Of a stretch of DNA of 36,463 bases, positions 2,071 through 21,804 are shown piece after piece. The notes under the pieces were generated by a model, which searched no databases, was not told where the DNA came from, and saw only the letters and a list, made by a program, of their open reading frames with translations. Source of the DNA: Candidatus Cacconaster merdequi (GTDB lineage Bacteria; Bacteroidota; Bacteroidia; Bacteroidales; UBA932); assembly GCA_018064345.1 (NCBI GenBank), contig JAGHVK010000108.1, positions 1-36,463 on the forward strand. Reading direction: 5' to 3'. Made by a program: the position numbers and the translations under genes. How positions within the stretch are numbered: position 1 is the first letter of the stretch; every line of letters starts with the position of its first letter.

Positions 2071-2137
2071 ATATCGTCTGTGTTTTGTTTTCGGTAAGAT
2101 TGTTTGAATGGATATTCCGCTCAGCCACTCCGGTCTA

Positions 2138-2839
2138 TTAGCCCAGGAACTCGCTTACGCATCTGTTGTAAGCGGCGACAGGGTCAGCTGCGGCTGTGAT
2201 AGGGCGTCCCACCACGATGTAGTCTGAACCTATTTCGCGTGCCCGTGCCGGTGTGGTGATGCGTACCTGATCGTCCGCTGTGGAATCAGCGAACCGTATC
2301 CCGGGAGTGACTGCGTAAAATTCACTTGAGCAGCGCTTCTTTACAATCGATGCTTCAAGAGGGGAGCAAACCACTCCGTCAAGGCCTGCACATTTTGCGT
2401 TGAAGGCATACTGTGAGATTGTATCTTCAATCGTTGCTCCGATCAGGAGCTCGTTCTGCATCCTTTCCTGGGAGGTGGATGTGAGCTGTGTCACAGCGAC
2501 AAGGACCGGACGGCTGCCGTCAGGGCGGGTAAGTCCTTCAAGCGCAGCCTTCATCATATCGATGGTGCCGGCGGCGTGGACGTTGGTCATATCGATGTCA
2601 AGTGCCGAAAGCACCTGCATTGTCTTGCGGACGGTGTTTGGAATGTCGTGCAGCTTGAGGTCGAGGAAAATCTTGTGTCCGCGGCTCTTGATCTGGCGGA
2701 CTATCTCCGGACCGGCCCCGTAGAAGAGTTCCATCCCTATCTTTACGAAAGGCTTAGTTCCCTGAGGAAACTTGTCGAGAAAATCAAGTGTAGATTGTGC
2801 GTTGCTGAAATCGCAGGCAATAATTACGTCTTTAGCCAT
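2138..2839 (-). CDS. pyrF: Orotidine-5'-phosphate decarboxylase
   Basis: Decarboxylates OMP to UMP, the last step of the pathway. The 233-aa length fits the bacterial group I enzyme. The catalytic tetrad segment FLDLKLHDIPNT contains Asp60, Lys62 and Asp65; Asp10 near the N-terminus (IIACDFS) is the other conserved acid. The phosphate-binding end (YIVVGRPITAAADP) is present. The start codon lies 1 nt after the pyrD stop, indicating translational coupling. Confidence 0.96.
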   Translation of the reverse strand: MAKDVIIACDFSNAQSTLDFLDKFPQGTKPFVKIGMELFYGAGPEIVRQIKSRGHKIFLDLKLHDIPNTVRKTMQVLSALDIDMTNVHAAGTIDMMKAALEGLTRPDGSRPVLVAVTQLTSTSQERMQNELLIGATIEDTISQYAFNAKCAGLDGVVCSPLEASIVKKRCSSEFYAVTPGIRFADSTADDQVRITTPARAREIGSDYIVVGRPITAAADPVAAYNRCVSEFLG

Positions 2840-2840
2840 A

Positions 2841-4501: not shown

Positions 4502-7500
4502 CTATTGATGTTTGTACTCTTCGTCTATCGTTGAGATTCCGAAGGTTATCTCTTCAAGGACGTCAAGCAGCACTTTCACTGTCTCCAGGGCTGTGAATAT
4601 CGTCACGTTGTTCTCCACTGCGGTGCGGCGTATCTCGTAGCCGTCAAGGTGTGTTGAGCGCTGATTTACGTCAATGGTGTTGATTACGTAGGTCACGTGG
4701 CCCTTGCGGAGTGAAGTGCAGATGTCGTCGCTTCCTTCGCTGAGCTTCTTCAGGCAGCGTGTGCGGATGCCTCTACTCTTGAGGAATTGTGCTGTGCCCT
4801 TGGTAGCTTCGATGTTGAAACCGAGGTCATAGAATCTTTTGACAAGAGGGAGCGCCTCTTCCTTGTCCTTGTCTGCGAGTGTCACGAGTATAGTGCCGTA
4901 GTTCTCGACCGACATTCCGGATGCCCTGAGCGATTTGTACACAGCGCGGTTGAGGGTCGTGTCGTATCCGATGGCTTCTCCCGTGGATTTCATTTCAGGT
5001 GAAAGATATGTGTCGATTCCTTTTATCTTGTTGAACGAGAATGCAGGTGTCTTCACATAATAGCGCTTTCTTTCAGGAAGATAAGTTTCGGTGTAGCCCT
5101 GCTCCCTGAGAGATTTGCCGAGCATAACCATAGTGGCTATCTTGGCCATAGGCACGCCGGTCGATTTGGAGAGGAACGGAACCGTGCGTGAGGAGCGCGG
5201 ATTGACCTCGATTACATATACTTCGTCGTTCTTGTCCACGATGTACTGGATGTTGAAGAGGCCCACTATGCCGATCTCCTTGCCGAGACGTACGGTGTAG
5301 TCGATTATCTTTTCCTTGACAGCCTTGCTGAGCGTGAAGGAAGGATATACGCTGATGGAGTCTCCCGAGTGGATGCCCGTCTTTTCGACGTGTTCCATAA
5401 TGCCGGGAATCAGGACGTTCTCACCGTCGCAGATTGCATCCACCTCAGTTTCGCGTCCCATAATGTACTTGTCCACGAGGACAGGGGAGTTCTCGTTGAT
5501 TTCCACAGCGTTGTGAAGATAATGACGGAGAGTTGCCTCGTTGCCGACAATCATCATGGCACGTCCTCCGAGAACGAAGCTCGGCCTTACAAGTACAGGA
5601 TATCCGATCTCTTCCGCTGCTTTCACACCCTCTTCTACGTCAGTGACGGCCTTGGCTTTCGGCTGAGGTATTCCTGTTTTGCGCATAATGGCCTCGAAGA
5701 GCTTGCGGTCCTCAGCATTGTCGATTGCGTCAATCTGTGTGCCGATGATAGGCACTCCGAGTTCGGCAAGAGGTCCGGCAAGATTGATGGCGGTCTGGCC
5801 TCCGAGAGTGACGATGACTCCTTCCGGCTTCTCGTGCTCGATGACGTTCATTACGTCCTCCACTGTGAGCGGCTCGAAGTAGAGCTTGTCGGAAATGGTG
5901 TAGTCGGTGGATACTGTCTCAGGATTGTTGTTGATGATGATTGCTTCATATCCGGCTTCCCGTATCGCCCAGATGGCGTGTACGGTTGAGTAGTCGAACT
6001 CGACTCCCTGGCCGATTCGGATCGGGCCAGCGCCAAGGACAACTATCTTCTTGCGGTTGCTTGAGATGCTCTCGTTCTCCTGCTCGTAAGTTGAGTAGAA
6101 GTAAGGGACGTATGTTTCAAATTCGGCTGCACAGCTGTCTATGAATTTATATACCGGCTTGATTCCAAGTGATTTCCTGAAATCAAGCATCTCCTTGAGC
6201 GTCAGTCCCCACAAAGTCTTGATATATTCGTCGCAGAAGCCCATTCTCTTTGCCTGGAGAAGGGTGTCCCTGTCTTTCGGGGCGGCCTTCAGCCTCTCTT
6301 CCATCGCCACGATGTTCACTATCTTGTCAAGGAAGAGCATATCTATCTTGGTCTGGTCGTATATCAGCCTTGTGTCCACGCCGTTACGTATGAGCTGCGC
6401 GATTGCGAAGAGATGGTCGTCAGGGAACTTGACGATATACTTCATCAGCTCTTCGTTGGTCATATTGACGAATTTAGGCTTGAAGAGGTGCTTCACTCCA
6501 ATCTCAAGTGAGCGTATGGCCTTGAGCAGGCTCTCCTCCACCGTGCGCCCGATGCTCATCACCTCTCCTGTTGCCTTCATCTGGGTTCCGAGTTCGTTGA
6601 TGGCCTCACTGAACTTGTCGAACGGGAAGCGGGCAATCTTTGTGACCACGTAGTCGATTGAAGGTTCGCAGCAGGCTGGTGCACCAGCTATTGTAATCTC
6701 GTCAAGAGTGAGCCCTGCGGCAATCTTCGCAGTCACGCGGGCGATAGGGAAGCCGCTTGCCTTCGAGGCAAGAGCAGACGAACGTGACACGCGCGGATTC
6801 ACCTCGATGATGTAGTAGTTGAACGAGAGAGGGTCAAGCGCAAACTGCACATTGCAGCCTCCTTCAATCTTCAGGGCACGGATGAGTTTGAGCGCGCTGT
6901 TGCGCAGCATCTCGTATTCCTTGTCGGCAAGAGTCTGGACTGGAGCCACTACGATGGAGTCTCCGGTATGGATTCCCACCGGGTCCACGTTCTCCATCGA
7001 ACAGATGGTGATTGCAGTGTCCTTGCTGTCGCGCATCACTTCAAATTCAATCTCCTTGTAGCCTTTCACACTCTTCTCCACAAGTACTTGGTGTACAGGT
7101 GAAAGAGCGAGGGCGTTGCGCATCATGTCGCGGAGTTCCTCTTCGTCTCCCGCGAATCCTCCGCCTGTTCCACCGAGGGTGAAGGCCGGACGAAGTACCA
7201 CCGGATAACCGATCTCAGCGGCAATTCTTACACCGTCTTCGATGGAATAGCAGATTTCTGACGGTATGACCGGCTCGCCCAGACTGATGCAGAGTTCCTT
7301 GAAGAGCTCACGGTCCTCAGCCTGCTCGATGCTTTCGAAAGAGGTGCCGAGAATCTCCACCTGACATTCGTCGAGGACTCCTTTCTTTGCAAGTTTCACC
7401 GCAAGATTGAGACCTGTCTGGCCGCCGAGCCCCGGGACTATGGCGTCCGGACGCTCATAACGTATGATCTTGGCGACGTATTCCAGGTCAAGAGGCTCCA

Positions 7501-7696
7501 TATAGACCTTGTCGGCTATGTGTGTGTCTGTCATTATGGTGGCAGGATTGGAGTTTACGAGCACCACCTCATAACCCTCTTCCTTGAGGGCAAGGCAGGC
7601 CTGTGTCCCTGCGTAGTCGAATTCTGCGGCCTGGCCGATGACGATAGGGCCGGAACCGATCACCATTACTTTCTTTATGTCTGTTCTTCTTGGCAT
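4502..7696 (-). CDS. carB: Carbamoyl-phosphate synthase, large (synthetase) subunit
   Basis: Makes carbamoyl phosphate from bicarbonate, two ATP and ammonia. The 1064-aa length and the two repeated ATP-grasp halves (starting [20 protein letters not shown] near residue 10 and [19 protein letters not shown] near 550) are complete, with the ATP-site segments [18 protein letters not shown] and [18 protein letters not shown]. The C-terminal ~130 residues form the MGS-like allosteric domain. In the usual enzyme ammonia comes through a tunnel from CarA; here the adjacent CarA seems unable to hydrolyse glutamine, so external ammonia may be the nitrogen donor. The start is supported by AGGAGG 8 nt upstream. 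Confidence 0.97.
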
Positions 7697-7704: not shown

Positions 7705-7710
7705 CCTCCT
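7705..7710 (-). promoter_or_regulatory. Strong Shine-Dalgarno for carB
   Basis: AGGAGG on the minus strand overlaps the end of carA and sits 8 nt before the carB ATG. With the pyrD site it is one of two full SD sequences noticed in this window. Confidence 0.65.
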
Positions 7711-8785
7711 ATCTGTTTTTCATCCAATCAACGAAAGTGTCAAGCACGAGCTCTTCCTTCGGACCCGGGGCTCCTTCAGGATAGAACTGGCTGGAAATGA
7801 CCTTGTCTCGGTTGCAAACAATTCCTTCGATACTATGGTCCACCACATCTTCGTAAAGAATCTCCACATCCTTGTCGCAGACGCAGGAAAGGTCCACGGT
7901 GAAGTTGTGGTTGTGCTCAACTGTAACTATTCTCTCTTCCTTCACGAGCCTTACAGGCCTTCCTCCGTGATGTCCTGCTTTCATCCTCTGGATTTCAGCA
8001 CCGTAGGTCAGCGCGAGAATCTGATGTCCGAGCGCTATCCCGCAAAGAGGGTACTTCCCCTTCAGCTCACCTGCCGCCGCCACCAGCTCTGGAAGCCTGC
8101 GTGGGTCGCCCGGGCCGCTTGAAATAACGATGCCGTCAGGCTGGAATCTTTCAATCTCCTCCTTTGTGGTGTTGAAAGGAACCACAGTCACATTGCAGCC
8201 TCTCGCTATCAGGGCGTCAATCAGGCTGTACTTCAGGCCGCAGTCAATCACGACGACGTCGAACTTGTGCTGTGGGGTGCGCCTGAACCACCTTTTGCTG
8301 CAACTTGCCTTGGCAACAGGACTTTCAGGACCTGAGGCCGCGGATGAAGATATGAGCTTGAGAGCATCTTCCACACTCGTGTCACCGTCTACTATCGCCG
8401 CTTTCATGCATCCCTTGTCGCGTATGGTACGTGTCAGCATGCGTGTGTCGATTTCGCTAAGTCCGGTCACCCCGTGTTCTGACATCTCTTCCGAAAGAGT
8501 CTTGGTGTATCTGAAATTCGAAGGCGTGTCGCAATATTCGCGAACTACGAGACCGGCGATTGCCGGAAACCTCGATTCAGAATCCTCGTCAGTGATTCCA
8601 TATTGTCCCATAGGGGGATAAGTCATCACAACAATCTGACCGGCGTATGCCGGATCCGAGATTATCTCCTGATAGCCCACCATAGAGGTGTTGAAGACAA
8701 TCTCCCCGGAAACGCTTCCCTGGGCACCGAATCCGATGCCATCGAAAACTTCACCGCTTTCAAGAACAAGTCGTTTGCTTTTCAT
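7709..8785 (-). CDS. carA: CarA-like subunit with a degenerate glutaminase site
   Basis: By family this is the small subunit of carbamoyl-phosphate synthase, which hydrolyses glutamine and feeds ammonia to CarB. The 358-aa length and the N-terminal CPSase domain (FNTSMVGYQEIISDPAYAGQ) are normal. In the class I amidotransferase domain, however, the nucleophile elbow reads CGIALGHQ instead of GICLGHQ: Ala251 (codon GCG, complement of 8033-8035) replaces the catalytic Cys. The His of the usual HPE motif is Tyr335 (codon TAT, 7781-7783) in QFYPEGAPGP, while Glu337 remains. The frame is intact and GHHGG is conserved, so it looks like a folded but catalytically dead subunit rather than a decaying gene. 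It overlaps pyrC by 26 bp and precedes carB by 12 nt. Likely a structural partner of an ammonia-dependent CarB. Confidence 0.93.
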   Translation of the reverse strand: MKSKRLVLESGEVFDGIGFGAQGSVSGEIVFNTSMVGYQEIISDPAYAGQIVVMTYPPMGQYGITDEDSESRFPAIAGLVVREYCDTPSNFRYTKTLSEEMSEHGVTGLSEIDTRMLTRTIRDKGCMKAAIVDGDTSVEDALKLISSSAASGPESPVAKASCSKRWFRRTPQHKFDVVVIDCGLKYSLIDALIARGCNVTVVPFNTTKEEIERFQPDGIVISSGPGDPRRLPELVAAAGELKGKYPLCGIALGHQILALTYGAEIQRMKAGHHGGRPVRLVKEERIVTVEHNHNFTVDLSCVCDKDVEILYEDVVDHSIEGIVCNRDKVISSQFYPEGAPGPKEELVLDTFVDWMKNR

Positions 8786-10043
8786 ATATGGTTTTTCCTT
8801 TGAATATTGTCATTATGCATTCTCCACTGACCTCCATACCGTCGAACGGCGTGGATTTTCCTTTGGAGAGAAATTTACTTGAATCAATCCTCCCGGAAGA
8901 TGAGAGGTCGAACACAGCAATGTCTGCGCTCTGCCCTTCGGCAAGGCCGCCTCCCAGCCGGAAGCGTCTGCGCGGAGCCGTACACATCAATTCGAACAGC
9001 TTTTCCAGGGAGATGACGCCTCCCTTCACAAGGGTGGTGTAAAGAACCGGAAATGCCGTTTCAAGCCCCGTGATGCCCATTGCGCTCTTTTCCAGACCTT
9101 TTGACTTCTCCTCTGCTGAATGTGGAGCGTGGTCTGTCGCAATCATATCGATGGTACCGTCCAACAGCCCTTCGACAAGGGCCTTGCGGTCTTCCTTGTC
9201 GCGGAGCGGGGGATTCATCTTGAAACGTCCGTCCTCCTGGAGGTCGTCCTGAGTAAGGACGAGATAGTGAGGGGCGGTCTCGCAGGTTACATCCACACCT
9301 TCAGCCTTGGCCCTGCGTATGAGTTCGACGCTCTCCTTAGTGGAAATGTGGCATACGTGGTAGGCGCACCCTGATTCCTTGGCAAGACGCAGGTCACGCG
9401 CTATCTGTCCCCATTCGCTTTCAGAGCAAATTCCACGGTGTGAGTGCTTTGCAGCGTAGCTGCCATCGTGGATGTATCCGCCGTGGAGAAGTGAGTTGTC
9501 CTCGCAGTGGGCCGCAATTATCACATTCTCCCGGGCAGCCACGGTCATGGCCTTGAGCATCGTCTCTTCATCCTGGATTCCGCTGCCGTCATCGGAGAAG
9601 GCTGCGCAGAGCGCCTTCATCGAGGCGAAATCAACTGTCTCTTTCCCCAGCCTGCCGATGGTGATGGTGGCATACGGCCGGACGTCAATCACAGCGTCCC
9701 TGCGGATTATATCAAGCTCCTTCCCGAGATTATCAGGAGAGTCCGGGGCGGGGCTGAGATTCGGCATCGGGCACACGCAGGTATAGCCTCCACGTGCTGC
9801 CGCCGCCGAGCCTGTGGCGATTGTCTCTTTGTAAGCATATCCCGGCTCGCGGAAATGCACGTGAACGTCGGCAAGTCCGTATGATACAGTCTTTCCTGAA
9901 GCATCAACGACTTTGACTCCTTCCTCAGGGACTATGTCGCGGGCGATGCTGGAAATTACGCCTTCCTCTATCAGGATGTCGCTCTGGACAAGCCCTTCGG
10001 GAAGTACAAGTGTTCCGCCTTTTATCAGCATTGCGTCTTTCAT
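8760..10043 (-). CDS. pyrC: Dihydroorotase
   Basis: Cyclises carbamoyl aspartate to dihydroorotate. Amidohydrolase-fold metalloenzyme with metal ligands visible as HVHFREPG, HCEDNSLL, HVCHIST and the late Asp in IATDHAPHS; the length (427 aa from the chosen start) fits the class I enzyme. The ATG at 10043 (MKDAMLIKGG) is preferred. The reading frame continues upstream through a terminator hairpin and T-tract to a TTG, which would add a non-homologous, regulatory-looking stretch. A second candidate is the ATG at 10031. First structural gene of the pyr operon; it overlaps carA by 26 bp. Probably controlled by the leader attenuator upstream. Confidence 0.94.
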   Translation of the reverse strand: MKDAMLIKGGTLVLPEGLVQSDILIEEGVISSIARDIVPEEGVKVVDASGKTVSYGLADVHVHFREPGYAYKETIATGSAAAARGGYTCVCPMPNLSPAPDSPDNLGKELDIIRRDAVIDVRPYATITIGRLGKETVDFASMKALCAAFSDDGSGIQDEETMLKAMTVAARENVIIAAHCEDNSLLHGGYIHDGSYAAKHSHRGICSESEWGQIARDLRLAKESGCAYHVCHISTKESVELIRRAKAEGVDVTCETAPHYLVLTQDDLQEDGRFKMNPPLRDKEDRKALVEGLLDGTIDMIATDHAPHSAEEKSKGLEKSAMGITGLETAFPVLYTTLVKGGVISLEKLFELMCTAPRRRFRLGGGLAEGQSADIAVFDLSSSGRIDSSKFLSKGKSTPFDGMEVSGECIMTIFKGKTIYEKQTTCS

Positions 10044-10053
10044 ACGGCCATAC

Positions 10054-10082
10054 AAAAAAAATGACGGCTTCAAATGCCGTCA
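10054..10082 (-). terminator. Intrinsic terminator in the pyr leader (attenuator)
   Basis: The minus strand forms TGACGGC (10082 to 10076), loop ATTTGAA, GCCGTCA (10068 to 10062), followed directly by eight T (10061 to 10054). It lies between the pyr promoter and the pyrC start, 11 nt before the ATG, so it must be bypassed for operon expression. The plus strand has no T-run, so it does not terminate the purine operon. Confidence 0.85.
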
Positions 10083-10160
10083 ATCAACAAAAATAGAAAC
10101 GAAACACCCAAGTGAAATTGCCGCAGAGCGGCCGTCAGTCAGCCAAAGGGTAGGTTTCAT
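10080..10160 (-). CDS. Putative pyr operon leader peptide (26 aa)
   Basis: An ATG about 10 nt downstream of the predicted transcription start opens a 26-codon frame beginning MKPTLWLTDGRSA and ending FVD. Its TGA stop is the first three bases of the terminator stem. It is in the same frame as pyrC but separated by that stop. The last codons are U-rich (Cys, Phe, Val, Ser, Ile, Phe, Val). There is no run of one amino acid, so amino-acid-type attenuation is unlikely; the layout instead matches nucleotide-sensing attenuation with coupled translation, as at E. coli pyrBI. No SD is visible, as usual for the phylum. Translation is inferred, not shown. Confidence 0.6.
   Translation of the reverse strand: MKPTLWLTDGRSAAISLGCFVSIFVD
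10120..10132 (-). promoter_or_regulatory. Possible RNA-polymerase pause hairpin with downstream U-rich tract
   Basis: Within the leader-peptide frame the minus strand reads GCCGC-TCT-GCGGC, a perfect 5-bp hairpin with a 3-nt loop. The next 37 nt (10119 to 10083), up to the terminator stem, contain 21 U. A hairpin followed by a U-rich stretch is where polymerase would slow when UTP is low. The overlapping TGACGGC (10137 to 10131) duplicates the 5' arm of the terminator and could compete for its 3' arm. Confidence 0.5.
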
Positions 10161-10175
10161 CCGTTCTAATTTTTG

Positions 10176-10206
10176 CAAAGGTACAGTTTTTTGACAGATT
10201 GACAAA
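10176..10206 (-). promoter_or_regulatory. Promoter of the pyr operon
   Basis: On the minus strand TTTG (10206 to 10203), exactly 19 nt, then TACCTTTG (10183 to 10176): a full match to the Bacteroidetes -33/-7 consensus. It predicts a start near 10170 and a leader of about 130 nt before pyrC, which contains the leader peptide and attenuator. Confidence 0.8.
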
Positions 10207-10269
10207 AAGAGTTGTGATTTTTCACCAATAAAAGTTATACACATGTTTATGTTGAAAATTACAGAGTAC

Positions 10270-10286
10270 CGATACTTCAAATATCG
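10270..10286. promoter_or_regulatory. Inverted repeat at the -33 position of the purine promoter
   Basis: CGATA-CTTCAAA-TATCG is a perfect 5-bp inverted repeat. It covers the place where the purC1 promoter should have its -33 box, which is poor there (TTCA). It may be an operator or activator site; the repeat is short and could be chance. Confidence 0.35.
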
Positions 10287-10298
10287 TCTCCAATAGTG

Positions 10299-10306
10299 TA
10301 TTTTTG
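10299..10306 (+). promoter_or_regulatory. -7 box of the purine operon promoter
   Basis: TATTTTTG matches TAnnTTTG exactly. The predicted start is near 10312, giving a leader of only about 20 nt before the purC1 ATG, which leaves no room for a purine riboswitch. The -33 box is weak. Confidence 0.6.
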
Positions 10307-10333
10307 CGCTTTATCATTTTCAACAATCAGTTT

Positions 10334-11014
10334 ATGGAACTCGTATATACAGGTAAGACCAAGAACGTATACGCTCTTGAGAATGGCAACTATCTTCTTA
10401 AGTTCAAGGACGACTGCACCGGCAAGGACGGTGTCTTCGATCCCGGTGAAAATTCAGTAGGCCTGACCATTGAAGGTGTCGGTGACGTCAATCTCCGTAT
10501 GTCTGTATATTTCTTTGAAAAGATAAACGCTGCGGGTATCCGGACACATTACGTGAGTGCTGACCTTAAAGAGACTACGATGGAGGTGCTTCCTGCAAAG
10601 GTGTTCGGCAAAGGGCTTGAAGTCATCTGCCGCCACAAGGCGGTGGGAAGCTTCTACCGCCGCTACAGCGATTACGTGGAAGAGGGGGCTGACCTTGCCG
10701 AGTATGTTGAGACTACCTTCAAGAATGATGAGAAAGGTGATCCTCTCGTTACCAAGGATGCTCTTGTGATGCTCGGTGTGATGAGTTCCCAGCAGTATGA
10801 AGATATCAAGGCTATGGCACAGAAGATAACCCGCATCGTGGCGGATGACCTTCTGTCGAAGGGCCTCGTCCTGTATGACATCAAGTTCGAGTTCGGATAC
10901 GACAAGGATGGAAACGTGATGCTCATCGATGAGATTGCCTCCGGCAATATGCGTGTCTATAAGGACGGCAGGTACGTCGATCCTATGACTCTTTCAAAAC
11001 TCTTCTTCGCGTGA
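10334..11014 (+). CDS. purC: SAICAR synthase paralogue 1 (Clostridia-type)
   Basis: SAICAR synthase joins aspartate to CAIR with ATP. The 226-aa product starts [13 protein letters not shown], the N-terminal nucleotide-binding signature of PurC, and has [18 protein letters not shown] where typical PurC has VRNIAAGS. The family signature DEISPDT is changed to [17 protein letters not shown]. This resembles the divergent short PurC seen in Clostridia. The ATG at 10334 is used; a TTG farther up is in frame but falls within the promoter. First gene of the purine operon; its stop lies 5 nt before the purE ATG. A second, canonical PurC lies 4 kb downstream, so the division of labour is unclear. Confidence 0.88.
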
Positions 11015-11019
11015 CGGTT

Positions 11020-11487
11020 ATGAAGGTCGGGATAGTTATGGGGTCCACGAGTGACCTCGAAGTGATGTCCGCCGCGTTCAGGACTCTTGACGAATTCGGT
11101 GTAGAGTACGAAAAAAGGGTAATCAGCGCACACAGGGCTCCCAAACTCCTTTTCGACTGGGCTTCCGGCGCAAAGGAACGGGGTCTCGGAGTTATTATCG
11201 CCGGCGCAGGCGGTGCGGCCCATCTTCCCGGAGTCACCGCTGCGATGACCACAATCCCTGTCGTGGGGGTTCCTATTTCGGGCAAGGCATTCGGAGGACT
11301 GGACTCACTTCTTTCGATGGTGCAGATGCCTTCCGGGATACCGGTGGCGACTGTTGCTGTGAACGGAGCGAAGAATGCTGCTCTTCTTGCCGTCTCGATT
11401 CTTTCACTCAACGATGCGACCCTTGCTGAAAAGCTCTCTGAGTTCCGGCAGAAACAGACTGAAGCGATAGAAAACACACAGATATAG
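11020..11487 (+). CDS. purE: N5-carboxyaminoimidazole ribonucleotide mutase
   Basis: Moves the carboxylate of N5-CAIR to give CAIR. The 155-aa product has the class I PurE signatures: GSTSDLEVM near the N-terminus, [10 protein letters not shown], and [11 protein letters not shown]. The [10 protein letters not shown] end is the form usual in Firmicutes. Class I enzymes normally need PurK, which is not in this window and must be elsewhere. The ATG at 11020 is favoured over an in-frame GTG at 11011 that would overlap the purC1 stop, because [10 protein letters not shown] is the usual N-terminus. Confidence 0.94.
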
Positions 11488-11490
11488 AAT

Positions 11491-14400
11491 ATGGACAGCA
11501 TCCGGATTTTCGTAGAAAAGTATTCGGGATTTCAGGTGGAGGCACAGAGCCTCCTGAGCGAACTGAACGAAAACCTTTCTCTGGGTCTCCGTTCCCTGAG
11601 GCTTCTCAATGTATATGACCTGAGCGGCTTCAGCCGTGAACTCTTCGACAAGTGCAGATATTCGGTTTTCGGAGAGGTTGTCACTGATAACGTGATGGAG
11701 GAATTTCCTCTTGAAGGGAAGAAGTACCTTGCCGTGGAATATATTCCCGGGCAGTTCGACCAGAGAGCCTCTTCTGCCGTGGACTGCGTGCATCTGATCG
11801 ACCCGAAGGCTGACGTGCAGATCCGCTCGTCCCGTCTCCTCGTCTTTGACGACGACATTTCCGACGAGACTCTCTCAACCGTGCGTCACTACTACATCAA
11901 TGCCGTGGAATCGAGGGAGAAAGATCTTTCCCGTCTCGATTTCAACACCAAGGCCGATGTACGTCCTCTTGAAGAGCTTGACGGCTTCACAGATATGCAG
12001 GAGAGCGATCTCCAACAGTTCTGCTCTGCCAAGGGGCTTGCAATGAATGCCGACGATCTCCGTGAGGTTGTCCTGTACTTCAGGAAGGAACGCCGCAACC
12101 CGACGGAAACCGAACTTCGGATACTCGACACTTATTGGAGCGACCACTGCCGCCATACCACGTTCACCACCGACCTTACTGAGATAAAGGTGGACGATTC
12201 CTTCATCAGGGACGAGATTGAATCTTCGCTCGGTATGCTGCACGATATGCGCAGTGAACTTGGAAGGGAAGGAAAGAGCCTCTGCCTTATGGAGATTGCC
12301 ACCATAGGCGGACGATATCTGCTCAAAAAGGGACTTCTTGACGATATGGAGCGCAGCGAGGAGAACAACGCGTGCAGTATCTTCATTGATGTGGATGTCG
12401 ATGGTCAGAAAGAGAAATGGCTTCTCCAGTTCAAGAATGAGACACACAACCATCCTACCGAAATAGAACCTTTCGGAGGTGCGGCCACCTGTCTTGGAGG
12501 AGCGATACGTGATCCGCTCTCTGGCAGGTCATACGTGTATCAGGCGATGCGCGTGACGGGAGCCGGCGACATATACAAACCTGTGTCAGAGACTATTCCA
12601 GGTAAGCTGCCGCAAAAGGTGATAAGCCGCAAGGCTGCTGCCGGATATTCAAGCTACGGTAACCAGATCGGACTTGCCACCACTCACGTCCGTGAGATAT
12701 ATCACGAAGGATATACTGCCAAGCGCCTTGAGGTAGGTGCGGTTGTAGGTGCGGTGAAGGTATCGGACGTGCGGCGCGAAAGCCCTGTTCCGGGTGATGT
12801 CATCCTCCTTCTCGGAGGCAGGACCGGGCGTGACGGGATAGGTGGCGCGACAGGCTCTTCTAAGGAACATACCGAAAGTTCCCTTGAAACCTGCGGCAGT
12901 GAGGTGCAGAAGGGTAACGCTCCTGAAGAGAGAAAGCTTCAGCGGCTTTTCCGCCGTCCGGAAGTGACCCGCCTGATAAAGAAATCCAACGATTTCGGGG
13001 CAGGAGGTGTAAGCGTTGCCATAGGTGAGCTTGCCGACGGTCTTGACATATACCTTGACAGAGTTCCTGTCAAATACAGCGGTCTCAATCCTATGGAACT
13101 CTCCATCAGTGAGTCGCAGGAAAGGATGGCCGTCGTTGTCGAGGCTGGGTCGAGACAGGAGTTTGAATCCTACTGTTCGAGTGAGAACATTGAGGTGACA
13201 TACGTTGCCGATGTCACTGACACCGGAAGGATGCGACTTTTCTACAATAAAGATGCAGTCGCTGACCTTTCACGTGAATTTATCGACAGCGCCGGAGCGA
13301 AGCATTACTCCAAGGCTGAGATTCAGCCTGTCGAGGACAAGGACATCTTCCACCAGGAGGTTGATGGCGATACGCTTGAGGACAAGATGTGCGCGATGCT
13401 CTCCTCTTCCAATGTCACTTCGCAGAAAGGACTCATAGAAATGTTCGACTCCACTATCGGACGCTCGACTGTCCTGATGCCTTTCGGCGGCCGCTACCAG
13501 AACACTGAAACTCAGGTTTCCGTGGAGAAAATACCTGCTGATGGATACACCGATACGGCAAGTATGATGGCGTTCGGCTTCAATCCTTACTTATCAAGCT
13601 GGAGTCCGTACCACGGAGCAGCTTATGCAATGATTGAGGCCTGCACGAAGATTGTAGCTGCCGGTGGTGACTGGTCCTCCATCAGATTCTCCTGCCAGGA
13701 ATATTTCGAAAGGATGACTGACGATCCTCACAGCTGGGGCAAGCCTCTGGCCGCTCTTCTCGGCTCCCTGAAGATGCAGGCTCTCCTCGGCCTTCCTTCA
13801 ATCGGCGGGAAAGATTCAATGAGCGGCACCTTCGAGCACTTGAACGTACCTCCGACATTGATAGCCTTCGGAATCACTGCCGTGGATGCAAATGTGGTAA
13901 TCTCGCCTGAGTTCAAGAAGCCGGGCAACAGGATATATCTTGTCAGACATACCCCTCTTGATAATAAGATGCCTGACACCCGGCAACTTAAGCGTAATTG
14001 GGATTTTGTCCGTGAACAGATTCTCTCAAAGAATATAGTTTCCGCTTATTCTCTCGGTTTCGGAGGCATAGCGGAGGCTCTTGCCAAATGCTCTTTCGGA
14101 AACGCACTCGGTTTCGACGTCAATCTCGGAGATGATTTCCTCTTCGACTACAAGTACGGTTCAATCCTTGTCGAGTCCGAAGTGGAGCTTGATTATGAGA
14201 ATGCCGCACTTCTCGGTGAGGTGACTGCTGCCGTGAACGGAATGAGCCGCATCAATGGAGAAGACATCCGCAATGCAAGGCTCCTCGAAGAGTGCTGTGG
14301 AAGATTCTCCAGGATTTACCCTGCGACAGCCGAGCCTTCGCACAAAAACGTTATTCCAGACGGAGTGGGCGAGCCTTCTGAGACGGAACCTGAAAAATAC

Positions 14401-15222
14401 AAGGGTGAACCTGTGGAGACTCCTGTCGTCTACATTCCTGTATTCCCGGGGTCCAATTGTGATTACGATACCGCAAAGGCTTTCCGCACTGCAGGAGCTC
14501 AGGTGAACTTGGGTGTATTCCGCAATCTTGACGGTGATGATGTACTCGAATCCATCCGGAGAATGAAGGAAGATATTTCCAATTGCCATATACTTGCTCT
14601 TTGCGGTGGTTTCTCACTCGGTGATGAGCCTGACGGAAGCGCGAAGTTCATTGCAAGCGTGCTCAACACTCCTGACATTGCTGAGGAAATAGGAAGACTC
14701 ATTGCAAGAGGCGGTTTGATACTGGGTATCTGCAATGGTTTCCAGGCACTTGTAAAGAGCGGTCTGCTGCCTTACGGAAAACTCGGATGCGTCACGAAGG
14801 AATCTCCTACGCTCTTCCGCAACGACATAAACCGCCACATATCACAGATTGTGACCACGAGGGTGGCATCGACCCGTTCGCCCTGGCTGGCAGGATTCTC
14901 AAAAGGGGACACATTCAGCATAGCGGTCAGCCACGGTGAGGGAAAGTTTGTGGTTTCGGAAAGTCTTGCCCGCACTCTGTTCGAGAACGGACAGGTGGCA
15001 TTCCAGTACGCAGACCCTGCTACGGGCCAGGCCACGATGGAGTCACCATACAATCCTAACGGCTCATATTACGCCATTGAGGGAATCATCAGCCCGGATG
15101 GCAGGACTCTCGGAAAGATGGGCCATAGCGAGCGCTATGAGAACAACGTCTTCAAGAATATCGAGGGCGAACTTCTACAGCCTCTGTTTGCAAACGCAGT
15201 GAATTATTTTCGTAAAAAATAG
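11491..15222 (+). CDS. purL: Phosphoribosylformylglycinamidine synthase, single-chain
   Basis: Converts FGAR to FGAM with ATP and glutamine. The 1243-aa protein is the long form, with synthetase and glutaminase in one chain, as in many Clostridia and Bacteroidetes. Visible are the PurL linker motif SDHCRH (about residue 214), KNETHNHPTEIEPFGGAAT (about 316-334) and a C-terminal class I amidotransferase domain. That domain keeps its triad: Cys1081 in LGICNGFQAL, His1212 and Glu1214 in MGHSER. It therefore uses glutamine normally, in contrast to CarA and PurF in the same region. It begins 3 nt after purE and ends 8 nt before purC2. Confidence 0.96.
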   Translation: MDSIRIFVEKYSGFQVEAQSLLSELNENLSLGLRSLRLLNVYDLSGFSRELFDKCRYSVFGEVVTDNVMEEFPLEGKKYLAVEYIPGQFDQRASSAVDCVHLIDPKADVQIRSSRLLVFDDDISDETLSTVRHYYINAVESREKDLSRLDFNTKADVRPLEELDGFTDMQESDLQQFCSAKGLAMNADDLREVVLYFRKERRNPTETELRILDTYWSDHCRHTTFTTDLTEIKVDDSFIRDEIESSLGMLHDMRSELGREGKSLCLMEIATIGGRYLLKKGLLDDMERSEENNACSIFIDVDVDGQKEKWLLQFKNETHNHPTEIEPFGGAATCLGGAIRDPLSGRSYVYQAMRVTGAGDIYKPVSETIPGKLPQKVISRKAAAGYSSYGNQIGLATTHVREIYHEGYTAKRLEVGAVVGAVKVSDVRRESPVPGDVILLLGGRTGRDGIGGATGSSKEHTESSLETCGSEVQKGNAPEERKLQRLFRRPEVTRLIKKSNDFGAGGVSVAIGELADGLDIYLDRVPVKYSGLNPMELSISESQERMAVVVEAGSRQEFESYCSSENIEVTYVADVTDTGRMRLFYNKDAVADLSREFIDSAGAKHYSKAEIQPVEDKDIFHQEVDGDTLEDKMCAMLSSSNVTSQKGLIEMFDSTIGRSTVLMPFGGRYQNTETQVSVEKIPADGYTDTASMMAFGFNPYLSSWSPYHGAAYAMIEACTKIVAAGGDWSSIRFSCQEYFERMTDDPHSWGKPLAALLGSLKMQALLGLPSIGGKDSMSGTFEHLNVPPTLIAFGITAVDANVVISPEFKKPGNRIYLVRHTPLDNKMPDTRQLKRNWDFVREQILSKNIVSAYSLGFGGIAEALAKCSFGNALGFDVNLGDDFLFDYKYGSILVESEVELDYENAALLGEVTAAVNGMSRINGEDIRNARLLEECCGRFSRIYPATAEPSHKNVIPDGVGEPSETEPEKYKGEPVETPVVYIPVFPGSNCDYDTAKAFRTAGAQVNLGVFRNLDGDDVLESIRRMKEDISNCHILALCGGFSLGDEPDGSAKFIASVLNTPDIAEEIGRLIARGGLILGICNGFQALVKSGLLPYGKLGCVTKESPTLFRNDINRHISQIVTTRVASTRSPWLAGFSKGDTFSIAVSHGEGKFVVSESLARTLFENGQVAFQYADPATGQATMESPYNPNGSYYAIEGIISPDGRTLGKMGHSERYENNVFKNIEGELLQPLFANAVNYFRKK

Positions 15223-15230
15223 ATATCCGG

Positions 15231-15944
15231 ATGTCCACTCAGAAACTGATATACGACGGAAAGGAGAAACAGGTTTTCGAGACTGCCGCCCCCGGTGAGG
15301 TCCTCATCCATTTCAAGGATGACATCACGGCATACGATGGAATCAAGAAAGCAGAGTTCCCCGGAAAAGGAGCGTTGAACTGCGAGATATCTTCCCTCAT
15401 CTTCGAAGTTCTCTCAAAAGAGGGAATCAGGACACATTTCATCAGGAAGGCCGGTGAACGTGACATTCTTTGCCGCAAGGTGAAGATGATCCCTGTGTTT
15501 TTCATAGTGCGCAACTACATTGCCGGAACGACCGCTGCAATGCTCGGTCTGGAAGATGGATTCAAGTCGCAGAATGTGGTGTATGAGCTGAAGTATGACA
15601 ATGAAGGTCTCGGAAATCCTCTTCTTAACCGTCATCACGCTGTGGCTCTCGGACTGTTGACTTATGAAGAACTTGATGCAACGCTCGCTGAGGTATCACG
15701 TTTGAACGAGGTGCTTGTGGAACTTTTCACAAGAGCCGGCATCAAGCTGATAGACTACCGTATCGAGATGGGCAGGGCAGATGACGGAAGTATAATCGTG
15801 GCTGATGAAATCAGCCCTGATACCAGCCGTATGTGGGATGCTGCCACCGACGAGAAACTGGACAAGGACCGTTTCCGTTTCGATCTCGGTTTCATTTGTG
15901 ACAATTACCGGAAGATTCTGGACCGTTTGAAAAGTGTAATCTGA
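15231..15944 (+). CDS. purC: SAICAR synthase paralogue 2 (canonical)
   Basis: The 237-aa protein is a canonical bacterial PurC: YDGKEKQVFE at the N-terminus, FFIVRNYIAGT, NPLLNRHHAVALGL, IDYRIEMGR and the signature DEISPDTSRMWD. It catalyses CAIR + aspartate + ATP to SAICAR. It lies between purL (8-nt gap) and purF (2-nt gap). Of the two PurC proteins in this operon, this one retains all the usual signatures and is the more certain SAICAR synthase. Confidence 0.95.
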   Translation: MSTQKLIYDGKEKQVFETAAPGEVLIHFKDDITAYDGIKKAEFPGKGALNCEISSLIFEVLSKEGIRTHFIRKAGERDILCRKVKMIPVFFIVRNYIAGTTAAMLGLEDGFKSQNVVYELKYDNEGLGNPLLNRHHAVALGLLTYEELDATLAEVSRLNEVLVELFTRAGIKLIDYRIEMGRADDGSIIVADEISPDTSRMWDAATDEKLDKDRFRFDLGFICDNYRKILDRLKSVI

Positions 15945-15946
15945 TT

Positions 15947-17293
15947 ATGGGTGTTTTCGGAGTATATGGTGTCAAGGATGCTTCATCCATCCTTTATTAT
16001 GGGCTCCATTCCTTGCAGCACAGAGGACAGGAAGGTGCAGGCATTGTCACTTTCGACAGTGACGGCGAGGCACACCGTTTCCGCGGGCTCGGCCTTGTGA
16101 ATGAAGTGTTCAACCAGGAACGGCTCAGTTCATTGAGCGGTGAAATGGGAATCGGGAATGTGCGTTATGCCAACGTGAACAAAGGTGGCAGCGACAATCT
16201 CCAGCCTTTCTTCTTCCATCATCATTCCGGCAATTTCGCGATAGCCGATGAAGGCGCTCTTGTGAATGCACCTCAGATAGTGAGCTATCTTGAGAATAGA
16301 GGAAGTCTTTTCCAGAGCGCGATGGACAGCGAGATTCTCGGCCATCTTATCAAGAAGGACAGCAACAAGCCACGTATCTTTCAGATATCTGATGCGCTCA
16401 ATATGATGGAGGGCAGTTTTGCATTCCTTGTGATGACGAGGAACAGGATATATGCCGCTCGTGACAAGTACGGTTTCAAGCCGCTGTCAATCGGCCGTCT
16501 CGGTGACGGCTATGTCGTCAGCAGCGAGACCTGTGCTTTCGACATAGTTGGTGCAACTTTCCTCCGTGACGTGGAACCGGGTGAGATAGTGACGATAGAC
16601 CATCACGGAATCAGGAGCCACCGTTTCTCACAGTTCCAGCGTCATAAGATGTGTTCGATGGATTACATTTACCTTGCCCGTCCGGACAGCGACATTGACG
16701 GCTGCAACGTCCACGCTTACCGCAAGGAGAGCGGAAGACGCCTTTTCCGCGAGTGTCCGTGCGATGCCGACATAGTGATTGGTGTCCCTGATTCAAGCCT
16801 GAGTGCTGCAATGGGGTATGCCCAGGAAAGCGGCATACCGTATGAGATAGGTCTTGTCAAGAGCAAGTATGTCGGACGTACATTCATACAGCCTACTCAG
16901 GCGATGCGCGAGAAGGGTGTGAAGATGAAACTTTCAGCCGTCCGCAGCATCGTTTCCGGCAAGAGGGTGGTGATGGTCGATGACTCGATAGTGCGCGGCA
17001 CCACATCCCTGAAGATTGTGAAACTGCTGCGCGAAGCCGGAGCCACTGAGGTACACGTGAGAATAGCCAGTCCTCGTATGACTCACCCTTGTTTCTATGG
17101 GGTCGATACCTCCACGGAAGCGGAACTCCTGTGTTCTCACCGGAATACCGAAGAGGCTTGCCGGATGATAGAGGCCGATTCTCTCGGGTTCCTGTCCCCT
17201 GAATCGACGATAGCATCTTCGGGCCGCTCTGATATGTGTCTGGCCTGCTTCACGGGAGAGTATCCTACCATACTGTACAATAAGAACCTGTGA
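15947..17293 (+). CDS. purF: Amidophosphoribosyltransferase lacking the N-terminal catalytic Cys
   Basis: By family, PurF makes phosphoribosylamine from PRPP and glutamine, the first step of purine synthesis. The 448-aa protein is of the B. subtilis [4Fe-4S] type, with Cys236, Cys382, Cys431 and Cys434 present, and the PRPP loop VVMVDDSIVRGTTS (341-354) is intact. In the family an N-terminal Cys, often uncovered from a short propeptide, precedes GVFG and is the glutaminase nucleophile. Here the protein starts MGVFGVYG, with no Cys at that place, and the in-frame bases upstream (Lys-Cys-Asn-Leu-Ile) do not supply one next to Gly. The oxyanion segment HNGN is changed to DEGA (101-104). Arg73 and Asp127 remain. 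The transferase half should work with free ammonia. Start 2 nt after purC2. Confidence 0.94.
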   Translation: MGVFGVYGVKDASSILYYGLHSLQHRGQEGAGIVTFDSDGEAHRFRGLGLVNEVFNQERLSSLSGEMGIGNVRYANVNKGGSDNLQPFFFHHHSGNFAIADEGALVNAPQIVSYLENRGSLFQSAMDSEILGHLIKKDSNKPRIFQISDALNMMEGSFAFLVMTRNRIYAARDKYGFKPLSIGRLGDGYVVSSETCAFDIVGATFLRDVEPGEIVTIDHHGIRSHRFSQFQRHKMCSMDYIYLARPDSDIDGCNVHAYRKESGRRLFRECPCDADIVIGVPDSSLSAAMGYAQESGIPYEIGLVKSKYVGRTFIQPTQAMREKGVKMKLSAVRSIVSGKRVVMVDDSIVRGTTSLKIVKLLREAGATEVHVRIASPRMTHPCFYGVDTSTEAELLCSHRNTEEACRMIEADSLGFLSPESTIASSGRSDMCLACFTGEYPTILYNKNL

Positions 17294-17348: not shown

Positions 17349-18383
17349 ATGGCAAAATCTTACGAAAACGCAGGAGTGAATCTGGAAGCAGGATACGAGG
17401 TTGTGCGCCGGATCAAACAGCACGTCGCTTCCACTGCCCGCCTCGGTACGATGGGCAACATAGGAGCATTCGGCGGGATGTTCGACCTTTCGCAGCTCGG
17501 TGTGAAGGAACCGGTCCTTGTCAGCGGTACTGACGGTGTGGGTACCAAGTTGAAGATTGCATTCGCTATGGACAAGCACGACACTATCGGTATAGATGCC
17601 GTGGCAATGTGCGTGAACGATGTGCTTGCCCAGGGTGCTGAACCGCTCTTCTTCCTGGATTACGTCGCGCTCGGGCACAATATCCCGACGAAGGTTGAGG
17701 CGATAGTCGCAGGTGTGGCTGAAGGATGCCGTCAGGCAGGATGCGCTCTTGTCGGCGGTGAGACAGCGGAGATGCCGGGGATGTATGCTGACGGAGAATA
17801 TGACATTGCCGGATATACGACAGGTGTGGTCGAGAAGTCGAAGCTCATAGACGGATCCAAGGTCAAGGCTGGTGACGTGCTGGTCGGAATAGCCTCTTCA
17901 GGAGTCCACTCCAATGGCTTCAGTCTCGTCAGAAAGATAATAGCTGACAATAAATTGAGCTATTTCGACAATGCCGTTGAGCTTGGCGGCCGCAAGATAG
18001 GTGAAGTGCTTCTCACACCTACGAAGATATATGTCAAACAAGTGCTTGACGTCATATGTAACTGCGACGTACACGGAATCTGCCATATCACCGGAGGTGG
18101 CTTTGACGAGAATATTCCGCGTGTGCTCCGCGAAGGACAGGGCCTTGAGATATATGAAGGCACCTGGGAGATACTTCCTGTATTCAAGGCCTTGGAGAAA
18201 TGGGGCGGAGTTCCTCACCGTGAGATGTTCAACATCTTCAATATGGGTATAGGAATGGTGATAGTTCTTGACGAGTCTGAAGCGCCGAAGGCAATCGGAA
18301 TCCTTGAGAAGCACGGAGAGAAAGCTTCTGTGATTGGAAAGGTCACTGAGAAAGAGGGTATTGTTGATATTTTGCCGTTTTGA
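17349..18383 (+). CDS. purM: Phosphoribosylformylglycinamidine cyclo-ligase (AIR synthetase)
   Basis: Closes the imidazole ring: FGAM + ATP to AIR. The 344-aa length is normal. Signatures include [14 protein letters not shown], the nucleotide site [16 protein letters not shown] and [11 protein letters not shown]. It follows purF after 55 nt without a convincing promoter, and is followed by purN after 1 nt. The start ATG is preceded by an A-rich stretch rather than an SD. Confidence 0.96.
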
Positions 18384-18384
18384 T

Positions 18385-18963
18385 ATGAAACGTCGTCTGG
18401 CAGTATTCGCAAGCGGGTCAGGAACCAATTTCGAGGCAATAGCGTCGGCATGCCGGGACGGTGTCCTCGACGCAGAGGTTGTACTTATGGTATGCGACAA
18501 TCCTGAGGCGAGGGTGATGGAAAGGGCGGCAAAGTTCGGTGTGCCTGCGTTTTCTTTCCGCGCCAAGTCGTATCGCTCCAAGGCGGAATACGAAAGGGTG
18601 ATTGTCGAAAGATTGGATCAGGCCTCAGTGGAGCTGGTATGCCTTGCCGGATATATGAGGATAGTCGGGCCGGAGTTGCTGTCGGCTTATGGCGGACGGA
18701 TAATAAATATCCATCCTGCACTTCTCCCTTCATTCAAGGGAGCACACGCCATCCGGGACGAATTCGAGTTCGGAGTGAAGGTCTTTGGAGTTACGATTCA
18801 CTATGTGGACGAGACTCTTGACGGAGGAAAGATAATCTCGCAGAGAGGATTTGAATATTATGGCGACGATTTCGATGAAGTCGAGGCCAGGACACACGAA
18901 ATAGAACATGAACTGTATGTCGAGACAATCGGCAGACTGCTTGGATGTTCCAGAACATTATAA
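18385..18963 (+). CDS. purN: Phosphoribosylglycinamide formyltransferase
   Basis: Transfers the formyl group of 10-formyl-tetrahydrofolate to GAR. The 192-aa product has the N-terminal VFASGSGTNFEAI phosphate site, and the catalytic Asn and His in INIHPALLPSFKG with the Asp in IHYVDETLDGG. The start at 18385 (MKRRLAVFAS) is chosen over an upstream in-frame ATG that lies inside purM. The 1-nt spacing to purM suggests coupled translation. Its cofactor can come from FolD at the end of the operon. Confidence 0.95.
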   Translation: MKRRLAVFASGSGTNFEAIASACRDGVLDAEVVLMVCDNPEARVMERAAKFGVPAFSFRAKSYRSKAEYERVIVERLDQASVELVCLAGYMRIVGPELLSAYGGRIINIHPALLPSFKGAHAIRDEFEFGVKVFGVTIHYVDETLDGGKIISQRGFEYYGDDFDEVEARTHEIEHELYVETIGRLLGCSRTL

Positions 18964-18981
18964 TACTTATTACTATACGAT

Positions 18982-20511
18982 ATGAGAGCATTGATCAGCG
19001 TAAGCGACAAGAGCGGCCTTGTGGATTTCGTCAAAGGCCTTGAGTCATCAGGATGGGAGATAATCGCGACGGGAGGAACACAGAAACTGCTGGAATCGAA
19101 TGGAGTGAAGACCACCGGCATCAGCGAAGTCACCGGTTTCCCGGAGATATGCGACGGAAGGGTGAAGACGCTCCATCCGAAGGTGCACGGAGGCCTCCTT
19201 GCACGCAGGGATGATCCTAATCATCTTAAGGCATTGAAGGATAATGATATAGATTTTATCGACCTGGTATGCGTGAACCTTTATCCTTTCCGCAGGACAA
19301 TATCCAATCCTGATGTGACTATGGAAGATGCGATTGAGAATATCGATATCGGAGGCCCGAGCATGCTCCGCAGCGCAGCCAAGAATTACAAGGATGTCAC
19401 TGTTGTATGTGACCCTTCCGACTACGGCCGTGTGCTTGATGAAATACGTGAGAACGGGAACACTCTTCTTCAGACCCGTCTTGAACTTTCGGCAAAGGCA
19501 TATACACACACTGCTGAATATGACACCTGCATTGCAACCTTCATGAGGGAGAAAGCCTCTCTTCCTGAAAAACTCTTCCTTGAGTACGACATAAAGCAAT
19601 CGTTGCGCTATGGCGAGAATCCTCATCAGGGTGCGAAGTTCTTCGCTTCTGACAAGAAGGTGGGGTATTCGCTTGCCTCTGCACGTCAGATTCAGGGGAA
19701 AGAGTTGTCTTACAATAATATACAGGATGCAAACGCGGCACTCAATATCGTGCGTGATTTCAAGGAACCGTTCTGTGTAGGGCTGAAGCATATGAATCCT
19801 TGCGGAGCTGCTGTCGGCACTACGGTTGAAGAGGCCTGGCAGAAAGCATACGAGTCCGACAAGGTCAGCATCTATGGTGGGATTGTCGCTGTGAACCGTG
19901 AGGTGACAGCTGAACTTGCTGCGGCCTGGAAGCCGATATTCCTTGAGATAGTGATGGCTCCATCATATACCCCTGAGGCCTTGGAAATCCTTTCAAGCAA
20001 GAAGAATCTTCGTGTGATGGAGGTTGAGATGCCTGATTGCGTCGAGCCTTCGATGCAGTATGTAAGCGTCAATGGGGGAATGCTGGTACAGGAACTTGAT
20101 TCTGATATCGTGAAGCTGACCCCGGAGATGTGCGTGACAAAAGTGAAGCCTTGCAGCAGTATCTTCTCTGATATGGAATTTGGATGGAAAATTGTCAAAC
20201 ACGTGAAATCCAATGCGATAGTTGTGGTCAAGGATGGACATACACTCGGCGTCGGCGCCGGACAGATGAATCGTGTGGGCTCGGCTGAGATTGCTCTGAA
20301 AGAGGCTCAGGCAGCAGGATTCACTAAAGATATCATTCTTGCTTCAGACGGATTCCTGCCTTTCGATGACACTGTAACTCTTGCTGCAGGATATGGAGTG
20401 ACAGCGATAGTGCAGCCTGGAGGAAGCATACGTGACAATGACTGCATAGCCAAGGCTGATGAACTCGGCATTGCTATGCTCCTGACTGGTGAACGCCATT
20501 TCAAACATTGA
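18982..20511 (+). CDS. purH: Bifunctional AICAR formyltransferase / IMP cyclohydrolase
   Basis: Carries out the last two steps to IMP. The 509-aa length is normal. The N-terminal MGS-like cyclohydrolase domain (MRALISVSDKSGLVDF, then GRVKTLHPKVHGGLLARR) is followed by the AICAR transformylase domain with Lys269-His270 in GLKHMNPCG and the late GAGQMNRVGS motif. It begins 18 nt after purN. It shares the 10-formyl-folate requirement of PurN. Confidence 0.96.
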   Translation: MRALISVSDKSGLVDFVKGLESSGWEIIATGGTQKLLESNGVKTTGISEVTGFPEICDGRVKTLHPKVHGGLLARRDDPNHLKALKDNDIDFIDLVCVNLYPFRRTISNPDVTMEDAIENIDIGGPSMLRSAAKNYKDVTVVCDPSDYGRVLDEIRENGNTLLQTRLELSAKAYTHTAEYDTCIATFMREKASLPEKLFLEYDIKQSLRYGENPHQGAKFFASDKKVGYSLASARQIQGKELSYNNIQDANAALNIVRDFKEPFCVGLKHMNPCGAAVGTTVEEAWQKAYESDKVSIYGGIVAVNREVTAELAAAWKPIFLEIVMAPSYTPEALEILSSKKNLRVMEVEMPDCVEPSMQYVSVNGGMLVQELDSDIVKLTPEMCVTKVKPCSSIFSDMEFGWKIVKHVKSNAIVVVKDGHTLGVGAGQMNRVGSAEIALKEAQAAGFTKDIILASDGFLPFDDTVTLAAGYGVTAIVQPGGSIRDNDCIAKADELGIAMLLTGERHFKH

Positions 20512-20523
20512 TTTTTCTGAAAG

Positions 20524-21795: not shown

Positions 21796-21804
21796 GCAAA
21801 GGAT

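Follow-up and report, generated by a model that had tools for sequence, protein, structure and literature searches.

Putative ammonia-dependent CarA and PurF in a divergent pyr/pur block of Candidatus Cacconaster merdequi and related gut Bacteroidales

Catalytic residues of CarA, PurF, and PurL

Analysis of a 36.5-kb window (the whole stretch of DNA studied here, from Candidatus Cacconaster merdequi) revealed a pyrimidine (pyr) operon and a purine (pur) operon that diverge from about 10.1 to 10.3 kb. The genes on the minus strand are arranged in the order pyrC, carA, carB, pyrK, pyrD, pyrF, pyrE, and pyrB, and those on the plus strand in the order purC-like, purL, purC, purF, purM, purN, purH, purD, and folD (Table 1). 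The window corresponds to contig C76 of a draft metagenome-assembled genome (MAG) of 1.90 Mb in 120 contigs, which is 84% complete and 6% contaminated (G000; G and L numbers denote genomes and loci). A first-pass annotation had proposed that two amidotransferases of this block, the carbamoyl-phosphate synthetase small subunit CarA and the purine enzyme PurF, are disarmed and that PurL is intact. Alignments confirmed all of this.

Both domains of CarA were recognized, namely, the carbamoyl-phosphate synthetase small-chain domain (PF00988, 168.5 bits) and the glutamine amidotransferase (GATase) domain (PF00117, 125.4 bits). Alignment with solved CarA chains revealed alanine at residue 251 and tyrosine at residue 335, sites that we take to correspond to the nucleophile Cys269 and the catalytic His353 of Escherichia coli CarA. 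The catalytic glutamate two residues past the His site is kept, and the triad reads Ala/Tyr/Glu. The window CarA lacks the Cys-His-Glu triad of glutamine-dependent class I amidotransferases and has the features of the animal carbamoyl-phosphate synthetase CPS1, a missing nucleophile and a retained glutaminase domain.

PurF was compared with the chain of PDB entry 1ao0, which we take to be the Bacillus subtilis enzyme. Residue 2 of the window protein aligns with residue 2 of this chain, so that the initiator methionine occupies the place of Cys1. The N-terminal cysteine of glutamine-dependent class II (N-terminal nucleophile) PurF is absent, and the glutamine loop is changed from AHNGN to ADEGA, and the motif GHVRY to GNVRY. 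The loop binding phosphoribosyl pyrophosphate (PRPP), VVMVDDSIVRGTTS, and the phosphoribosyltransferase (PRTase) domain are retained, and four cysteines match the positions of iron-sulphur ligands, as presumably assigned from B. subtilis PurF. The nearest upstream in-frame Cys codon lies 4 codons before the purF ATG, within the final part of purC, and a misassigned start site would therefore not restore Cys1. A start-site error was rejected because the upstream DNA offers no usable cysteine.

The window PurL contains Cys1081, His1212, and Glu1214, and these three residues are kept in 73 of 78 PurL sequences; the others are four cut-short frames and one Cys-to-Gly change. The latter was found in L155, a termite-gut MAG by isolate name (host presumably a termite), where the PurL nucleophile is glycine (GIGNGFQ) and Arg73 of PurF is leucine.

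Table 1. Genes and substituted residues of the pyr/pur block (window coordinates)
Feature	Position	Strand	Evidence or remark
pyrB, pyrE, pyrF, pyrD, pyrK (remainder of pyrimidine operon)	346..4489	-	NCBIfam matches
carB, carbamoyl-phosphate synthetase large subunit, whole	4502..7696	-	TIGR01369, 1451 bits (cut-off 1027)
carA, small subunit	7709..8785	-	TIGR01368, 369 bits (cut-off 307); PF00988 and PF00117 matches
CarA residue 335, Tyr for catalytic His	7781..7783	-	Codon TAT, motif QFYPEG
CarA residue 251, Ala for Cys nucleophile	8033..8035	-	Codon GCG, motif GIALGHQ
pyrC, dihydroorotase, first gene of pyr operon	8760..10073	-	
purC-like paralogue, first gene of pur operon	10304..11014	+	TIGR00081, 122 bits (under cut-off 189.9)
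purL (long form), glutaminase residues intact	11491..15222	+	TIGR01857, 1717 bits
purC, second copy	15231..15944	+	TIGR00081, 188.3 bits (slightly under cut-off 189.9)
purF, without Cys1, altered glutamine loop	15947..17293	+	TIGR01134, 474.5 bits (cut-off 350)
purM, purN, purH, purD, folD (remainder of pur operon)	17349..22665	+	NCBIfam matches

History of the PurF and CarA losses

The window PurF was scanned against one genome per species, which yielded 115 confirmed stretches. The 80 best were retained, and 51 of these 80 loci come from a horse or a ruminant according to their titles. The PRPP loop is kept in the window and in all of the best 80 loci. The nearest relative is L085 of Candidatus Cacconaster equi (88% PurF identity), a separate assembly. 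Its PurF also lacks Cys1, and its CarA carries the same Ala/Tyr substitutions, which makes a sequencing error unlikely. Cacconaster has been assigned to family UBA932 (PMC8957277; papers cited here by PMC number were drawn on in part), and the family sampled below (f1) is probably UBA932.

A set of 95 PurF sequences was assembled from the window, the 80 loci, and 14 of 19 family relatives; the five relatives left out of the tree (L015, L016, L017, L021, and L024) all have the cysteine. Cys1 is absent in 43 and present in 52 of the 95 sequences. In a tree built from the PRTase columns only, the 43 Cys-less sequences form one clade (support 99/95) that requires one change. This clade comprises 26 Cacconaster-like sequences (the window among them) and 17 labelled Alistipes or Rikenellaceae. 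These results indicate that the Cys-less PurF is an old inherited state, and a loss private to the window genome was rejected. The 17 Alistipes/Rikenellaceae MAG loci (L101, L103, L110, and 14 others) lack Cys1 and Arg73 and keep an NNG or HNG loop. Elsewhere in the tree, 12 other PurF loci have leucine in place of Arg73 despite an existing Cys1, perhaps an earlier stage.

A second kind of PurF without Cys1 is widespread (L025 to L034 and L298 to L300); it starts with MGG(L/F)FG or MSGFFG and contains the PRPP loop. Among the matches listed (E value of 0.001), this kind is the sole PurF match in G125, G135, G145, G086, and G140, in two of which the MGGLFG/MGGFFG motif was read directly (L033 and L034). 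The CarA of these five genomes is broken, which suggests a second, separate case. Synteny of carA and purF was rejected as a classifier of distant PurF because a 600-residue Cys-type PurF adjoins carA in only 1 of 23 carA regions searched (G001).

In each of the 10 window-type CarA sequences available, the Cys or the His is missing. Their Cys/His/Glu positions read AYE, NYE, CYE, and GHE (two each), GQE, and GIE. In L093 (17288-21331) and L096 (452-4881), the operon contains no carA, and the aligned portions of pyrC and carB are separated by 18 to 19 bases. Two further arrangements were observed: pyrK adjoins pyrC without carAB between them in L088 and L099, and in L169/L072 (G084:C3) CarA lies inside a 1,488-residue open frame that continues into CarB, near a Cys-type purF.

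In the family sample together with seven panel genomes from outside it, 136 CarA sequences were found, of which 112 are intact, 23 are broken, and 1 is a fragment. The substitutions include Gly/Ala (G027), Gly (G004), His to Tyr with the Glu deleted (G011 and G049), and, at the His position, Asn (G086), Gln (G140), Asp (G117 and G021), and Phe or Tyr (G125, G135, and G145). As read from these alignments, the CarA losses are several events. At a CarA N-domain divergence of 0.3 to 0.4, the GATase part has diverged by 0.54 in the window-type lineage (25 pairs) versus 0.275 in the other lineage (199 pairs); by this measure, it is under relaxed constraint in the window-type lineage. Overall, the first-pass interpretation is supported, with three corrections: the loss of Cys1 in PurF is a single old event common to many species, CarA was lost several times, and GuaA is affected as well.

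Amidotransferases elsewhere in the genomes and the family

A panel of 13 genomes was examined: G000, G080 (96% complete), G084, G114, G027, G041 as a contrast, and G149 to G155, which were reached via loci. The panel was selected for the broken block, and its frequencies are not family frequencies; in G149 to G155, PurF was sought only via the GlmS model TIGR01135. The GMP synthetase GuaA of the window genome (G000:C113) consists of the synthetase only, without a GATase domain. Such bare synthetases (frames of 321 to 376 residues) were found in seven panel genomes (G000, G080, G027, G149, G153, G154, and G155), and full-length GuaA in the other six. In all seven, CarA was detected only in broken form and PurF only without Cys1. 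G152 has, as far as found, only a broken CarA and a Cys-less PurF beside a full-length GuaA, and in G041 PurF, CarA, and GuaA are all intact.

The first-pass annotation had named intact additional carA and purF copies as the observation that would overturn its reading. Among the matches listed, neither G000 nor G080 has an additional CarA or PurF. Relatives differ in this respect: an intact CarA and an intact PurF accompany the Cys-less PurF of G084, G114, and G151, and G150 has an intact CarA and, as far as found, only a Cys-less PurF.

It had also called for a check of other glutaminases. Searches of G000 with PF00117 and PF13522 revealed no GuaA, PyrG, TrpG, or PabA glutaminase, GlmS, or AsnB. 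A HisH-like protein of this genome (L002) has intact GICVGMQ and FHPEKSG motifs, and HisH-like proteins with intact motifs were likewise read in G149 and G154. The single PF00117 protein of G080 and of G155 is the broken CarA, so HisH was not found there; a separate GuaA glutaminase subunit, sought with PF00117 in panel genomes only, was not found in these two genomes either. The NAD synthetase NadE of G000 is a 284-residue frame, which by its length is the short, ammonia-type enzyme without a nitrilase domain. Short NadE also occurs in G080, G149, G153, G154, and G155, and long NadE in G027, G041, G084, and G151. A glutamine synthetase homologue is present in all 13 panel genomes, which indicates that the cell still makes glutamine. 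The type of this enzyme, also raised by the first-pass annotation, is not uniform: 12 genomes have a long form (frames of 726 to 1,001 residues, probably type III by our assumption), and G154 has only a 483-residue one.

To compare CarA with GuaA, 149 family genomes were sampled. A CarA state was obtained for 125 and both states for 111; G137, whose CarA is only an 84-residue fragment, was excluded, G084 was scored as CarA intact owing to its second copy, and the GuaA of G031 and G049 was classed on length (443 residues) alone. GuaA was found in 135 of the 149 genomes, and 14 genomes were dropped from the comparison because GuaA had no match or was cut by a contig end. The GuaA glutaminase domain is wholly lost in several genomes, among them G059, G023, G036, and G117, and is reduced to a remnant without the nucleophile elbow in G125, G145, G004, G011, G140, G086, and G106. 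Only broken CarA occurs in 15 of the 125 genomes. Among genomes with only broken CarA, 11 of 14 have lost the GuaA glutaminase, versus 1 of 97 with intact CarA (Fisher's test, 9e-12, without tree correction; 111 genomes). The tree requires eight changes for CarA and six for GuaA. The kind of PurF was assigned in 11 of the 15 genomes with only broken CarA, and among the matches listed 10 of these have Cys-less PurF only. The expected co-occurrence of the losses in relatives is borne out in these two respects, and genomes that depart from it are considered below.

Free ammonia as the predicted nitrogen donor

The CarA and PurF of the block are, with good probability, working subunits that have lost their glutaminase sites and would use free ammonia directly. 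Carbamoyl phosphate would be formed from HCO3-, NH3, and 2 ATP by CarB, with CarA as a scaffold, and phosphoribosylamine from PRPP and NH3 by the PRTase domain of PurF. Direct use is the simplest mechanism. Ammonia remains a substrate of E. coli PurF that lacks Cys1 (PMC3261824), and human CPS1 works with Ser294 in place of the nucleophile Cys (PMC4655335). Free ammonia would be the cellular substrate, and high ammonia in herbivore guts may have made glutamine less necessary. Apart from PurL, most amidations in nucleotide and NAD synthesis would probably be ammonia fed in this lineage, with glutamine synthetase, PurL, and, in the window genome, HisH retained.

The broader proposal, put forward with less confidence but still favoured, is that the lineage swapped glutamine for free ammonia in most nucleotide and NAD amidations and that this happened convergently across branches of the family. 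The losses would then represent stages, from a single residue through two residues and a domain deletion to gene deletion (carA removed, carB kept). Judged from the sequences compared, the shift from glutamine to ammonia in this gut Bacteroidales family seems to have been repeated and partly co-ordinated.

Several observations weigh against ammonia-fed CarA and PurF and the shift as a whole. In four panel relatives (G084, G114, G150, and G151), an intact CarA accompanies a broken CarA or PurF. The number of tree-independent pairs for CarA and GuaA is small (two to four with the same direction, none opposite), too few for significance. A short GuaA (330 to 340 residues) stands beside a full one in ten family genomes, and the presence of a bare synthetase therefore does not necessarily indicate loss. 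G021, G128, and G096 have only broken CarA and a full GuaA, and G096 additionally has a Cys-type PurF among the matches listed; conversely, G031 has lost the GuaA glutaminase and kept CarA. In G057, G071, G095, and G138, the only PurF among the matches listed is of the second, Cys-less kind (its motif was read directly in G057), and CarA and GuaA are kept, which may mean that PurF loss comes first. Short NadE is not specific, as it also occurs in three further panel genomes (G114, G150, and G152) and in two genomes from elsewhere (G014 and G034), and G027 combines broken CarA, PurF, and GuaA with a 669-residue glutamine-type NadE; the NadE type was a poor tracker of the losses. CTP synthase (PyrG) exceeded the cut-off in 4 of 13 panel genomes, and full-length GlmS in only 2. 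The nine genomes without CTP synthase include G041 (100% complete), which also lacks GlmS and has intact PurF, CarA, and GuaA. These absences are not specific, and the idea that they form part of the shift could not be maintained.

Alternatively, glutamine might still feed these enzymes through a separate glutaminase, such as HisH, another amidohydrolase, or an unlisted one, that supplies ammonia in trans. The HisH-like protein of G000 with its intact triad and a class I-like 305-residue protein of the same genome (L003, which we take from its motifs to be a C26-type peptidase) would be candidates. This explanation is improbable, as the search, which covered the class I fold, revealed the broken CarA as the only PF00117 protein of G080 and G155, yet their CarA, PurF, and GuaA are all altered; moreover, the pyr and pur operons of the window contain no extra gene. 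An equally small chance is given to an auxiliary block, the work being done by intact carA and purF copies in the 16% of the window genome that is not assembled. The incompleteness of this genome and the intact copies in G084, G114, G151, and G150 agree with it. Against it, extra copies were found neither in G080 among the matches listed nor in G149, G153, G154, and G155 by PF00117 and TIGR01135 (the latter, a GlmS model, might miss distant PurF kinds), and the GuaA of these genomes is glutaminase free too.

General decay, in which the cell salvages bases and CarA and PurF are becoming pseudogenes, is very unlikely. The relaxed CarA GATase part, the missing carA of L093 and L096, and the variation of purC copies between relatives would fit it, but the frames are open and the window contains full pyr and pur gene sets (purB, purE, and purK were not looked for). 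In the pair G080-G155, dN/dS was 0.060 (GATase) and 0.049 (PRTase) for PurF and 0.029 (N domain) and 0.118 (GATase) for CarA. This is one unsaturated pair (values of about 0.02 to 0.12), and dS between the window and L085 is saturated in places. Strong purifying selection in all parts tested indicates that CarA and PurF are probably in use, and decay was rejected on these low values. The intact PurL glutaminases and the conserved PRPP loop point the same way, as the first-pass annotation had argued from PurL. An artefact of assembly, frame, or start-site choice is hardly conceivable: the genome is a draft MAG and misassigned PurF starts have been reported (for 3 of 58 archaeal cases, PMC3261824), but no usable Cys precedes purF, and both the PurF without Cys1 and the broken CarA were seen again in separate horse and ruminant assemblies, on which ground assembly error was rejected.

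Each element of direct ammonia use has a precedent, in animal CPS1, crenarchaeal PurF', and short NadE. Animal CPS1 (matching entries PDB 5dot and 6uel) and the window CarA both keep the glutaminase domain with the nucleophile Cys replaced. The window CarA belongs to a bacterial two-subunit enzyme encoded in a pyrimidine operon, and the Cys/His substitutions of its kind differ among species. PurF', a PurF homologue without Cys1, was proposed to be an ammonia-dependent enzyme, and each crenarchaeote covered by the part drawn on also has a Cys-type PurF (PMC3261824); in contrast, G000 and G080 have only Cys-less PurF among the matches listed, and both kinds together were met in G084, G114, and G151. 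Single-domain NAD synthetase has no glutaminase and is a reported user of free ammonia (PMC3376133). This NadE type is common and old. Table 1 of that paper lists no glutaminase-less guaA in 730 genomes and no such carAB in 600. In the two-subunit GMP synthetase of archaea, the synthetase is a protein of its own, and GMP synthetases can use ammonia in vitro (PMC10526850); G080 and G155 differ in that no partner glutaminase was found. In the open-licence literature, covered mostly through titles and abstracts, no description was found of the combination, of its repetition, or of a glutaminase-free bacterial GuaA.

Ammonia channelling is exemplified in textbooks by the glutamine amidotransferases. 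If the proposed shift to free ammonia is correct, these bacteria provide a natural experiment on why channelling exists, with the glutamine source dropped repeatedly and enzyme by enzyme. They would allow tests of whether external ammonia determines the cost and of why PurL is resistant to the change, and rumen or hindgut ammonia would be predicted to limit nucleotide synthesis directly in these bacteria. Channelling has been attributed to low free cellular ammonia (PMC3376133).

The pur operon of the window contains two purC paralogues. The purC-like gene is well conserved (78 to 92% in all 17 loci that have it), and the second purC is less conserved in relatives (42 to 77%) or absent. The identical pur gene order was observed in five Mycoplasmatota/Bacilli contigs (L158 to L161 and L163), three of which also have pyr genes. 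Their PurF is of the Cys type and 58 to 60% identical to that of the window, and together with the shared order this suggests an old transfer of the block.

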